A stretch of 64,000 nt of DNA. It comes from Spongiibacter marinus (GTDB lineage: Bacteria > Pseudomonadota > Gammaproteobacteria > Pseudomonadales > Spongiibacteraceae). The notes under the pieces are model-generated. The model was not told where the DNA came from, searched no databases, and saw nothing but the letters and a program-made list of their open reading frames with translations. This document shows positions 366 through 4,317 of the stretch, one piece after another (within the stretch, counting starts at the first letter, position 1; every line of letters starts with the position of its first letter). The translations under genes and the position numbers were made by a program. Where the stretch lies: contig NZ_JAFBBD010000001.1 in NCBI RefSeq assembly GCF_016906995.1, forward strand, positions 310,001-374,000, in the 5' to 3' direction.

Positions 366-402
366 AACACAGTTCTCTTTAATTTTATGTTGTAGGGCAG
401 AT

Positions 403-420
403 AACGTGTTAACAAGTTAA
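403..420. promoter_or_regulatory. Palindromic operator-like site upstream of the acyl-CoA dehydrogenase gene
   Basis: Bases 403-418 read AACGTGTTAACAAGTT, a 16-bp palindrome with a single mismatched pair. Overlapping it, 409-420 reads TTAACAAGTTAA with perfect 5-bp arms around 2 bp. The site lies about 40 bp upstream of the acyl-CoA dehydrogenase start, where a TetR-type repressor of a catabolic gene would often bind. The regulator is not in the window, so the role is inferred. Confidence 0.4.
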
Positions 421-664
421 TGGTGTAGCTCGAGGAATTCACTGGCACGGCGTTTCAGAATACTGTCTGCTCCGCTCAAAATGATATTGAGCCAGGCAGG
501 GAGATAAGAAATCCAGCGCTAAGGTCACAACACTAACCGCCCCCATACCCGATGAAAGACACTTTAATTGGTGATCGGCTACCTGTACCGAAGGAACTCG
601 TGAGCGCCAGAGCTATATCTATGAGCGGTGTCGCAATTGTCTGAGAACGGAACAGGCTCCTACT

Positions 665-695
665 ATGTAAACCGGTCATGGTATTTCGTTTACAT
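665..695. promoter_or_regulatory. Inverted repeat upstream of HMG-CoA reductase gene
   Basis: ATGTAAAC at 665-672 is repeated as its exact reverse complement GTTTACAT at 688-695, with 15 bp between the arms. It sits 46 bp upstream of the HMG-CoA reductase start and is a plausible operator or promoter-proximal site for that gene and the receptor behind it. The rest of the 376-bp divergent region (366-741) shows no open reading frame I can support. Confidence 0.4.
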
Positions 696-741
696 GAAAT
701 GAGGCCGAAATAACAATAAGCACAGAACGAGGGAAGGGAAG

Positions 742-1914
742 ATGACAGATCGGAAAATACCCCGACAGCCTGACGGCGACTATTCGTTAGCAGCTATAAA
801 AGCACGACGTCAGTTCATTGAAGCGGCTAGCGGCGCATCGCTCCCCCATACTTCTGCCTTTTCCTTTGATCCAGAAACTGTATCAGGAAATTGCGAGAAC
901 CTTCTCGGCACCTGCCAGCTGCCCATCGGTGTTGCCGGCCCTTTACGAATTAATGGCGAGCACGCGTCAGGGGATTTCTTCATCCCCTTGGCAACCACTG
1001 AAGGCACGCTTGTTGCGAGCTTCAACCGCGGTATGAAAGCAATCACTGCAAGCGGCGGCATTACCACTACGGTCTTCGACGACTATATGCAGCGCGCACC
1101 GGCATTCAAGTTCAGAAGCGCCCGCGATGTAAAGCAGTTTCTTCTTTGGATGGAAACACACATCGAGGAAATTAAACGCGAGGCAGAGTCAACCAGCTCT
1201 GTAGCCAAACTGGCGTTTATTCAGAAATGGTCAATTCACAATATCCTGTATATGCGCTGGAATTTCTCGACGGGCGACGCTGCAGGTCAAAATATGGTTT
1301 CCCGCGCAACCGACCATGCTTGCCGCTGGATACTCAGCAATTACCCAGGCGAGATCGTATTCTATGCCTTCAGTGGCGGCTTAGACACCGACAAGAAGCA
1401 CTCACATATCAATAATTTTAGTAGTCGCGGAAAACGCGTTGTTGCGGAGCTTGTCCTAAAAAAAGAGGTTATGGCAACGCTACTTCGAACAGACGCAAAA
1501 ACGATACAACGTCTGCGAGATATATCTCATCAAGGCAGCTTGCTCGCGGGTGCGTCCTATACAGGCGGACAATCTGCCAACGCGATAGCGTCATTTTTCA
1601 TTGCGACCGGGCAAGATGAAGCCAATGTTGTTGAGTCCCATGCAGGGCAAACATTTACCGAGGTAATGGAGAATGGCGACCTCTACTGGTCGTGGACGCT
1701 GCCCTCAATCATTGTCGCTAGCTATGGCGGTGGCACCTCACTTGCCACTCAGCGGGAATGTTTAGAAATGATGGATTGCTTCGGTAAAGGCAAAGCAAAA
1801 AAGCTAGCGGAAATCGCCGCCTCTGTGGTCGCCGCTGGAGATATCTCTATCGCAAATGCAATTGCGGCGGGTGAATTTGTCAATGCTCACGAAACCTACG
1901 GACGGAACAGGTAG
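742..1914 (+). CDS. Hydroxymethylglutaryl-CoA reductase (class I-like)
   Basis: This 390-residue protein matches the catalytic domain of HMG-CoA reductase, which interconverts HMG-CoA and mevalonate with NAD(P)H. Visible family motifs in order are ENLLG..Q.PIGVAGPL (52-68), TTEGTLVASFNRG (85-97), with the likely catalytic Glu87, GDAAGQNM (178-185), DKK with Lys218/219, ATGQDEANVVES (288-299) with Asp292, and His383 close to the C-terminus in NAHETYGRNR. The C-terminal His followed by an N-R pair resembles the eukaryotic/archaeal class I enzyme. There is no membrane domain. A strong ribosome site (GAGGGAAGGGAAG) precedes the ATG. It is followed after 57 bp by a TonB-dependent receptor and probably shares its transcript. 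No other mevalonate-pathway gene is in the window, so biosynthetic and catabolic roles are both open. Confidence 0.9.
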   Translation: MTDRKIPRQPDGDYSLAAIKARRQFIEAASGASLPHTSAFSFDPETVSGNCENLLGTCQLPIGVAGPLRINGEHASGDFFIPLATTEGTLVASFNRGMKAITASGGITTTVFDDYMQRAPAFKFRSARDVKQFLLWMETHIEEIKREAESTSSVAKLAFIQKWSIHNILYMRWNFSTGDAAGQNMVSRATDHACRWILSNYPGEIVFYAFSGGLDTDKKHSHINNFSSRGKRVVAELVLKKEVMATLLRTDAKTIQRLRDISHQGSLLAGASYTGGQSANAIASFFIATGQDEANVVESHAGQTFTEVMENGDLYWSWTLPSIIVASYGGGTSLATQRECLEMMDCFGKGKAKKLAEIAASVVAAGDISIANAIAAGEFVNAHETYGRNR

Positions 1915-1971
1915 CGCTTTCATCTACCTGCTCTTCATTTAATTCACTACGATTTACAAAGGTAAAAAATA

Positions 1972-4317
1972 ATGAATAACTTCAAACGCAGTATTCTGTC
2001 GTCCGCGATTGCAGTTAGCTGTGTCACTGCCTATGCCAATGATGCAAAACCGTTAGCCGTTGAGGAGGTCGTTGTCACGGCACAAAAGCGCAGTCAGAGC
2101 CTTCAGGACGTACCTATCGCCGTGCAGGCCGTGACTGCAGACACGATGCGCCAAAACGGTATCAGCACGTTGAGCGACATGTCATCAATATCGCCAGGGT
2201 TCAAGATCGCCGATACACAGAGCACCTTCAAGGTATCTGCACTTCGGGGAGTCAACAGTTACGGCTTCGGCTTCGGTGTGGAAGAAAGTATTCCGTTCTA
2301 TCTCGATGGCATATACCTTGGCAACGGCTTTGAAATGCTCGGTGACTTGCTCGATATACGCCAAGTAGAAGTGTTGAAAGGCCCCCAAGGCACACTATTC
2401 GGCCGCAACGCGTCAGGCGGTGCCGTAAACGTTATTACCAATAAACCCAGCGATGAACTTGAGGCAGAGGTTAGCCTTGGCGTTGGCAACTATGGCCTGC
2501 TAACACGCCGCGCCCTCGTCAACGTTCCCATTATCGACAACACCCTAATGGTGCGAGGCGGCATTTCCACTCGTGACCGAGATGGCTGGCAGACAAATGT
2601 AATCACTGGCAAGAAAGATGGATCAGGCCAGGATCGCATGTCTGGCTTTGTACGCGCTCTATGGGTCGCCGCCGATAGCCTGGAAGTAGAATATAGCCGC
2701 GACTGGTCTAAGCAAGATGACCACAGCGGTTACACCAGCGTCAATGCCATCAACCCCAGCTCTCCTATCTGGGCGGCGGTATGGTCCCAGGCTCATCCGG
2801 CAAGCTTCTACAATGAGAAAAACAACGACAATGCCAGTGGCAACGCCGGCTTTATCCTCCCCATCGGCGGCGGCCTCCCAGTAAGACCTGCAGCGGCGGC
2901 ACCTGATATTGTTCAGAACCGGAAGATCACTGGCGACGCAGTGAAACTAACCTGGGATATCAACTCAGATCTTACACTGACATCAATCAGCTCACTTAGG
3001 GAAGTGGACGCCCGTGTTGGCAGTGATCTCGACGGCAGTAACCTCGGGCTTGCAAATTCATGGAAGACCGGCAGCACCAAAGAGATCAACCAGGAGCTTC
3101 GCCTGAATGGCATGACCGAAAGCTTAGATTGGCTTGTCGGTTTTAACTACTACAAACAAGACCGTGAAGAGTGGAACACCACCTATCTAAGCTCCCTAAT
3201 CGGCCTAAACCGCATCGGGCCTGCCGGTGCCGCAAACAACGTAACCGAGTCCAGTGGCGGCGATAACGAAACAGAAAGCTACTCACTGTTCTCTGATGCC
3301 ACATGGCATGTAACAGAGGCCCTCAATCTTACTGCGGGGATTCGCTACTCCTACGACAAGAAGACCTTTGACTACGCCGACCCACAGAACACCAGCTACA
3401 ACAATGGCGGCATTCTCTACCCAAACCATTCACAGCTTGCCGACCCATCGGTAAGTTCATGGGACGACAACTGGAGTAATGTTTCCGGACGTATCGGTGC
3501 CGACTACGCGCTTGACGAAAATATCCTGTTGTACGCGACCATTAGTCAGGGTTACAAGTCCGGTGGTTTCAACACCCGCCTAACCGTAGAAGGCGATCCG
3601 GTAAACGGCTTCACCACACCAGACTTCGCCACAGACCCGTTTGATGAAGAAACTAACATCAATTACGAAGTGGGTATTAAATCCGACCTGTTTGATCGAC
3701 GGTTACGATTCAACTCATCTATCTTCATGTACGTCTACAAGGATTTGCAGACCCTACTCGCCGACGGCAATTCGCCAGTTGCACGTACTGTAAACGCTGC
3801 AGAAGTAACCGGAAAAGGCTGGGAAACTGAACTTACCTACCTGGCCACTGAGCGCCTGACTATCAGCGCCAACGTATTGGCTTTGAATGCCGAGTACACC
3901 GAAGACGTGCGCGACGCGCAGGGCCTGCTTCGTATAGAAGAGGGCACCTCACGCACATGGTCGCCCGAGCTCGCGGCAACACTCTCTTTGGATTACTCGG
4001 TAGAAATGGCTGACATGGGCGAGCTTCGAGCCAATATGACCTACACCTACCAGGATGAGCACTATCAGCGACCAACGCAGGTCACAGACCCCTATTCTGA
4101 TAGCGACAACGAACAAGAAGCCTACGGCTTGCTGAATGCGCGTGTGTCCTACTACAGCCCCGAGCGGAAATGGGAAGTCGGTGTATGGGGTAAGAACCTA
4201 TTGGATGAGAGCTACCGCAGCTATATCAGCGCATCGGTAAATGCTGTTGCCGGCGTATTGACTACCCAGCGCGGCGAGCCCACAACCTTTGGTGTAGAAG
4301 CGATTTATCACTTCTAA
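1972..4317 (+). CDS. TonB-dependent outer membrane receptor
   Basis: A 781-residue outer-membrane receptor that takes up a large or scarce substrate using TonB energy. It has a signal peptide (about 1-22, ending TAYA), a TonB-box-like stretch EEVVVTA at 31-37, a plug domain starting QSLQDVPIAVQAV and closing near GGAVNVITNKP, then a beta-barrel ending in a terminal Phe (EAIYHF), typical of outer membrane proteins. The 'EEVVVTAQKR' opening is common among the many TonB receptors of marine and sphingomonad-like bacteria that import organic compounds. No siderophore gene is nearby. Its position 57 bp behind the HMG-CoA reductase gene suggests a shared substrate or regulator. A hairpin terminator follows the stop codon. 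Confidence 0.93.
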   Translation: MNNFKRSILSSAIAVSCVTAYANDAKPLAVEEVVVTAQKRSQSLQDVPIAVQAVTADTMRQNGISTLSDMSSISPGFKIADTQSTFKVSALRGVNSYGFGFGVEESIPFYLDGIYLGNGFEMLGDLLDIRQVEVLKGPQGTLFGRNASGGAVNVITNKPSDELEAEVSLGVGNYGLLTRRALVNVPIIDNTLMVRGGISTRDRDGWQTNVITGKKDGSGQDRMSGFVRALWVAADSLEVEYSRDWSKQDDHSGYTSVNAINPSSPIWAAVWSQAHPASFYNEKNNDNASGNAGFILPIGGGLPVRPAAAAPDIVQNRKITGDAVKLTWDINSDLTLTSISSLREVDARVGSDLDGSNLGLANSWKTGSTKEINQELRLNGMTESLDWLVGFNYYKQDREEWNTTYLSSLIGLNRIGPAGAANNVTESSGGDNETESYSLFSDATWHVTEALNLTAGIRYSYDKKTFDYADPQNTSYNNGGILYPNHSQLADPSVSSWDDNWSNVSGRIGADYALDENILLYATISQGYKSGGFNTRLTVEGDPVNGFTTPDFATDPFDEETNINYEVGIKSDLFDRRLRFNSSIFMYVYKDLQTLLADGNSPVARTVNAAEVTGKGWETELTYLATERLTISANVLALNAEYTEDVRDAQGLLRIEEGTSRTWSPELAATLSLDYSVEMADMGELRANMTYTYQDEHYQRPTQVTDPYSDSDNEQEAYGLLNARVSYYSPERKWEVGVWGKNLLDESYRSYISASVNAVAGVLTTQRGEPTTFGVEAIYHF

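Follow-up and report, generated by a model that had tools for sequence, protein, structure and literature searches.

Does a gene of the class I 3-hydroxy-3-methylglutaryl-coenzyme A (HMG-CoA) reductase family, carried by a gammaproteobacterium next to a TonB-dependent receptor, serve isoprenoid synthesis, mevalonate breakdown or something else? The gene lies at positions 742-1914 (+ strand) of a 64,000-nucleotide stretch of Spongiibacter marinus DNA (assembly GCF_016906995.1, contig NZ_JAFBBD010000001.1, positions 310,001 to 374,000), here called the window, and encodes HMGR1, a protein of 390 amino acids that scores 379.2 bits against PF00368 and bears the family annotation class I HMG-CoA reductase. 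Judged from its residues and relatives, that name is very probably wrong, and assignment of HMGR1 to the FcrA family of acyl-CoA reductases is well supported; a role as a fatty, wax-ester enzyme is only likely. Our preferred reading, with moderate confidence, is an FcrA-family acyl-CoA reductase in what looks like a horizontally acquired lipid-uptake island, where it would supply alcohol for ester (wax) synthesis.

FcrA, a relative of the class I HMG-CoA reductases, reduces fatty acyl-CoA with NADPH, and was shown biochemically to act on acyl-CoA rather than HMG-CoA in assays of NADPH-dependent reduction (Grossi et al. 2025, PMC11948995); insensitivity to simvastatin is among the traits that define it. 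According to that paper, the universal HMG-binding lysine is replaced in FcrA by generally small residues and Leu862 by a bulky one, the substitutions of N. pharaonis FcrA being Ser684 to Glu and Leu862 to Trp. The lysine is printed there as Lys795; because of the paper's own numbering offsets and our alignment, in which human residue 795 is Cys and 735 is Lys, we equate it with Lys735.

The preliminary description of this DNA had called HMGR1 a class I-like HMG-CoA reductase, of which the class I part is confirmed and the HMG-CoA reductase part is not. The predicted model (mean pLDDT, predicted local distance difference test, 88.4) has the class I fold: human 1dqa and 6hr7 match it with VIA Z values of 45.1 and 44.7, whereas the highest-scoring class II chain among the matches listed reaches 30.4. 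Alignment places the catalytic residues Glu559, Lys691, Asp767 and His866 (human numbering) in HMGR1. The protein nonetheless falls below the cut-off of NCBIfam model TIGR00533 (352.9 vs 441.8 bits), has Ser plus a one-residue deletion at human K735, Phe at Leu862 and Ser at 684. HMGR1 thus resembles FcrA in its class I fold and catalytic residues, in the loss of the HMG-binding lysine and in a bulky residue 862, and also in a genome with WS/DGAT (wax ester synthase/diacylglycerol acyltransferase) genes and no mevalonate pathway and an acyl-CoA synthetase near the gene; it differs from FcrA as described in having Phe862 and not Trp, Ser684 and not Glu, no N-terminal Lad domain and a setting of hydrolase, receptor, AraC and dehydrogenase genes.

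Across the 78 non-reference rows of a residue table, from which rows with an identical end had been removed as duplicates, Lys735 never occurs (0/78). Position 862 carries Trp in 63 rows and Phe in 14, one truncated row lacking it altogether; at position 684, 55 rows have Ser and 13 have Glu. Four Streptomyces plasmid homologues (L187, L191, L192 and L194) offer a contrast, keeping both Lys735 and Leu862; the first three lie alongside genes annotated as mevalonate kinase and as further members of the mevalonate pathway, and L194 is an unannotated record. FcrA-like residues are found in a fifth, unannotated Streptomyces row (L193) and in rows from Alteromonas (L189) and Vibrio (L190). Among the rows examined, residues 735 and 862 tell FcrA-type proteins from HMG-CoA reductases, a distinction of practical value since FcrA-type genes get annotated as 'hydroxymethylglutaryl-CoA reductase', for instance on an Alteromonas plasmid, which invites the reconstruction of false mevalonate pathways.

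A tree of 44 rows, 32 of them chosen locus rows, separates seven Lys735 rows from all others at 98/95, and HMGR1 belongs there to a clade of 31 rows with support of 100/99. Both the table and the tree exclude L001 and L002 (duplicates), L059 and L060 (fragments) and L045 and L055 (other frame taken); L057 is in the table and was left out of the tree, as were L188, which lacks the catalytic Lys, and L100, which has a long branch. The 31-row clade includes two Bacteroidota proteins, L041 and L046, with an N-terminal extension of ~125 residues, which in the model of L046 consists mostly of beta strands with a low-confidence linker and which we liken, with modest confidence, to the Lad domain described in PMC11948995. 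Within the clade, HMGR1 forms a group at 100/100 with L024 (Arenicella), L025, L097 and L098, the last two from genome G066. These five proteins are 69-83% identical to one another, and all have Phe862 and, at 13 alignment positions, residues that are rare in the other 73 rows; Phe862 also occurs outside the group, in L079 and eight more distant rows. HMGR1-type genes (at least 68% identity) are found only in S. marinus and G066 among 390 genomes of the order, only in S. marinus among 369 genomes of a class sample, and at two of 37 named loci. An HMGR-like gene is present in 14 of 21 genomes of the family, and those 14 carry other types than HMGR1.

For isoprenoid synthesis, the search covered the whole S. 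marinus assembly, which is 99.99% complete in 29 contigs. HMG-CoA synthase (PF01154) was found in none of 19 genomes, S. marinus included, and the absence of a mevalonate kinase from the window, pointed out in the preliminary description, extends to the entire genome, which holds no match to TIGR00549; Dxr, of the methylerythritol phosphate pathway, is present. As far as tested, HMGR1 stands outside isoprenoid biosynthesis. A mevalonate pathway elsewhere in the genome was rejected on the empty HMG-CoA synthase and mevalonate kinase searches, isopentenyl diphosphate isomerase not having been searched. HMGR1 shares fold and catalytic residues with class I enzymes of the mevalonate pathway (1dqa, 6hr7 of M. 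thermolithotrophicus, the Streptomyces plasmid proteins) and differs from them in lacking Lys735 and Leu862 and in a genome without HMG-CoA synthase and mevalonate kinase.

In line with the initial proposal, a true HMG-CoA reductase might take part in importing mevalonate and degrading it by way of HMG-CoA lyase. The mevalonate-degrading type of Pseudomonas mevalonii has a class II HMG-CoA reductase linked to HMG-CoA lyase. With it HMGR1 has in common the superfamily fold and an HMG-CoA lyase in the genome, and the adjoining receptor, the HMGR fold and the catalytic residues would all suit such a pathway; unlike that enzyme, however, HMGR1 has a class I fold (Z 45 versus at most 30 in rounded values) and no Lys735, and its genome's lyase is unlinked. 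That lyase, at C2:370653, is the one gene over the cut-off in the suggested check for HMG-CoA lyase. It lies on another contig than HMGR1, among neighbours that seem to encode isovaleryl-CoA dehydrogenase, enoyl-CoA hydratase and a pair of carboxylase subunits, which gives the look of a leucine-degradation operon. Furthermore, no lyase, kinase or known mevalonate transporter was recognised in the island around HMGR1, and Lys735 and Leu862 are lost from both HMGR1 and its paralogue HMGR2 but kept in the four Streptomyces plasmid rows. Mevalonate, as first suggested, or HMG as the compound handled is thus left without support, given these residues and the location of the lyase, and we regard a true HMG-CoA reductase here as very improbable. 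A partial HMG-CoA-lyase-like match with one stop was also seen at G000:C9:5982-6404 of the same genome (149 bits, below cut-off). Among the papers listed on mevalonate catabolism, on HMGR with TonB receptors and on HMGR with HMG-CoA lyase, we recognised none describing the locus.

What surrounds HMGR1 is instead a set of import and acyl-CoA genes. The HMGR1 gene is followed on the same strand, after a gap of 57 bp, by an open reading frame at 1972-4317 (+) for a TonB-dependent receptor, TBDR1 (781 amino acids, Plug and beta-barrel), and is faced by an acyl-CoA dehydrogenase gene that starts at 365 (- strand) and runs leftward out of the window, both as originally described; the N-terminal part of the dehydrogenase occupies 3-365 and the whole gene C1:309193-310365. 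Beyond it, in the stretch C1:290001-310000 left of the window, lie genes for a thiolase-like protein (C1:307636-309168, -), an acyl-CoA synthetase (C1:305867-307573, -), an AraC-type regulator (C1:304850-305845, +), a hydrolase of the secretory-lipase family (C1:303355-304716, -; start uncertain, GxSxG present) and a second TonB receptor, TBDR2 (C1:300921-303206, -). The six 2-kb bins of 302001-314000 have a GC content of 0.49-0.54 (mean 0.513), whereas the other 34 bins of the 84 kb average 0.563 (standard deviation 0.018), and the island looks horizontally acquired.

The receptor beside HMGR1 had been proposed as its meaningful partner, which the comparison does not bear out for TBDR1 itself. 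A search at E<=1e-120 brings up no counterpart of TBDR1 in any of the 21 family genomes but its own, and the receptors of the related clusters in G066 and in G252 (a genome of a third family), 66% identical to each other, are 32-35% identical to TBDR2 and 26-29% to TBDR1; a receptor therefore is part of the module, the adjacent TBDR1 not being the conserved one. The two operator-like dyads reported from the divergent intergenic region (366-741) do exist as inverted repeats, for example 665-672/688-695 and 402-419, but are not above chance in strength, since 6 of 60 dinucleotide shuffles reached the best one. No 11-base word is common to this region and the hydrolase/AraC intergenic and pre-TBDR2 regions.

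The neighbourhood recurs outside the family. In G066, from another family of the order, a single strand carries genes for a thiolase-like protein (51% identity), a DUF3336-patatin protein, a WS/DGAT with HHxxxDG and a synthetase (57%), together with an HMGR1-type protein (71%), hydrolase (65%), acyl-CoA dehydrogenase (82% identical to the one facing HMGR1), second synthetase (58%), AraC-type regulator (35%) and receptor. G252 has an AraC-type regulator (37%), receptor, hydrolase (66%), an FcrA-type protein of another type (48%) and two acyl-CoA dehydrogenases. Hydrolase homologues (E<=1e-60) occur in six of the 390 genomes of the order, and the three at or above 63% identity, that of S. marinus included, lie within ~6 kb of an FcrA-type gene. 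Among the remaining three, G290 (51%) is at a contig end, and around the weaker homologues of G196 and G342 (37-38%) the stretch retrieved contains no FcrA-type gene. Elsewhere in the HMGR1 group, a synthetase gene (58%) ends 68 bp upstream of the HMGR1-type gene at L024, enoyl-CoA hydratase and another synthetase follow at L025, and enoyl-CoA hydratase precedes at L098. As far as the literature was searched, where no further paper naming FcrA was among the matches listed, the recurring module and the Phe862 subtype are new, the enzyme itself being a variant of a published family. As part of a recurring hydrolase-receptor-AraC-reductase-dehydrogenase module, FcrA-type enzymes would contribute to nutrition through the uptake of lipids or esters, and the module makes their real substrates testable.

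On our preferred reading, an external ester would be cut by the lipase-family hydrolase, presumably after export, and the products would be imported by the TonB-dependent receptors, possibly under AraC-type control. The acid would be activated by the acyl-CoA synthetase and the chain modified or shortened by the acyl-CoA dehydrogenase and thiolase-like protein, after which HMGR1 would convert acyl-CoA to alcohol, probably with two NADPH; one of the genome's four WS/DGAT genes may then provide the sink, turning alcohol into ester (wax). The catabolic or import setting envisaged at the outset is thus partly borne out. A terpenoid- or sterol-type substrate is conceivable, and the available excerpts of a paper on isoprenoid wax esters (PMC10351704) mention neither HMG-CoA nor TonB.

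The direction of the reaction is where this reading meets its main rival. The same FcrA-type enzyme could instead use CoA and two NAD(P)+ to oxidise an imported alcohol, released by the hydrolase from a wax ester, a phytol-like or another ester, and the resulting acyl-CoA would then be degraded by the dehydrogenase and thiolase-like protein. The adjoining dehydrogenase, thiolase-like protein, hydrolase and receptors do look catabolic, the island has no WS/DGAT of its own, and solved HMGR-fold complexes with mevalonate and NAD are among the structure matches listed; HMGR-fold enzymes can indeed oxidise mevalonate, as in P. mevalonii. Oxidation by two NADP+ is uphill, however, and the operon of G066, with WS/DGAT and two synthetases, fits alcohol making. 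FcrA was, moreover, assayed as an NADPH-dependent reductase (PMC11948995). We consider the oxidative direction rather unlikely.

Several observations weigh against an alcohol-forming FcrA-type enzyme in wax synthesis. The tree contains no characterised FcrA sequence. HMGR1 has Phe and not Trp at 862 and retains Ser684 where N. pharaonis FcrA has Glu, yet Ser is the residue in 55 of the 78 rows; it is the sole carrier of Gln752 in its group of five, its four closest relatives having His; and it is without the N-terminal Lad domain, which only some FcrA possess. WS/DGAT is lacking from the island and present in all 21 family genomes whether the HMGR-like gene (14/21) is present or absent, so that co-occurrence is a useless test within the family. 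Rival fatty acyl-CoA reductases are detected by PF07993 in 21/21 family genomes, although this broad family has matches in all 14 controls too. The S. marinus genome also has what we take, from length and place, to be an AcrB-like gene beside a WS/DGAT gene (L182), and presumably a FarA-like gene, because of which the island reductase is more likely specialised than essential. Enrichment of neighbours within 6 kb of 31 FcrA-type loci, compared with 20 control stretches, leans the expected way for receptors (9 vs 2), acyl-CoA dehydrogenases (8 vs 2), synthetases (6 vs 0) and AraC-type regulators (6 vs 0), with short-chain dehydrogenases/reductases at 4 vs 3 and WS/DGAT at 2 vs 1, but is weak and partly biased, the counts being only indicative because the reference proteins came partly from the counted loci and the 31 loci were hand-picked.

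The surroundings of HMGR2 count on the same side. This second paralogue of S. marinus, at C1:520030 (L004:9018-11860), is sister to the HMGR1 type at 98/98 and, like it, is without Lys735, with Trp at 862. Among the loci examined, which include L004, L011, L018, L115, L116 and L195-L199, HMGR2 stands beside an SDF-family symporter in 10 of 14 family genomes, two of the remaining four being represented by short stretches only, and beside a class III CoA-transferase in 8 of 14, an alpha/beta hydrolase lying between in five; at the S. marinus locus the symporter is present and no such CoA-transferase adjoins. SDF-family symporters carry small acids, and the best solved relative of the CoA-transferase is succinate--hydroxymethylglutarate CoA-transferase, so the HMGR2 operon suggests a small acid, and the HMGR1/HMGR2 branch may not be long-chain throughout. 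The branch could then act on an acyl-CoA that is not long-chain, be it a small (di)carboxylic one or one that yields alcohols destined for ether lipids or lipids of other kinds; ether-lipid roles are suggested for some FcrA in PMC11948995. HMGR1 itself, though, sits among lipid-type genes and not beside an SDF symporter, HMGR2 too has lost Lys735, and the CoA-transferase scores far below the cut-off of its best NCBIfam model, succinate--glutarate CoA-transferase (250.8 vs 750 bits). We judge this alternative improbable; independently of it, the symporter/CoA-transferase operon of HMGR2 offers a starting point in the search for a new substrate.

More speculatively, the class I-HMGR-fold enzymes of the order might make up a range of four-electron acyl-CoA/alcohol oxidoreductases, with specialisation set in each case by the accompanying uptake system. 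The HMGR1 type, with Phe for the pocket Trp and with hydrolase, TonB receptors and acyl-CoA dehydrogenase, would then act on methyl-branched, isoprenoid or polycyclic acyl-CoA, and HMGR2, accompanied by a symporter of the dicarboxylate type and a CoA-transferase of the succinate--HMG type, on small (di)carboxylic acyl-CoA. We consider this rather unlikely; if true, either substrate class would go beyond those reported in the available text of PMC11948995.

Other loci showed further arrangements. At L114:8993-17722 and L126:7944-16584 a recurring set comprises an FcrA-type gene, 4HBT thioesterase, iron-containing alcohol dehydrogenase, AraC-type regulator, receptor and acyl-CoA synthetase (Pfam was run on L114 only). 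Pairs of acyl-CoA dehydrogenase genes adjoin FcrA-type genes at L053:4359-10766, L132, L137 and L144, those of L053 and L144 matching PimC/PimD and IpdE2 models below cut-off. L100:1923-17400 (G066:C54) holds a distant HMGR-like gene (40%) with Tyr at 735 and Val at 692, directly after a TonB receptor gene and with luciferase-like monooxygenase, RPE65-type carotenoid oxygenase and WS/DGAT genes nearby. On a Sinorhizobium plasmid, the gene at L188:5998-7242, named 'hydroxymethylglutaryl-CoA reductase', encodes a protein without the catalytic Lys691 region and is flanked by annotated acyl-CoA carboxylase and biotin carboxylase genes. Finally, seven proteins of the order (L101-L107; 808-991 amino acids) have an FcrA-like domain fused to a long C-terminal part, which in the two tested, L101 and L104, matches EcKL/APH kinase-like families; the gene after L101 encodes a PPDK_N/PEP (phosphoenolpyruvate)-utiliser protein, similar large genes follow in others of the seven, and the fusions perhaps belong to a phosphorylated-alcohol lipid pathway of a new kind.

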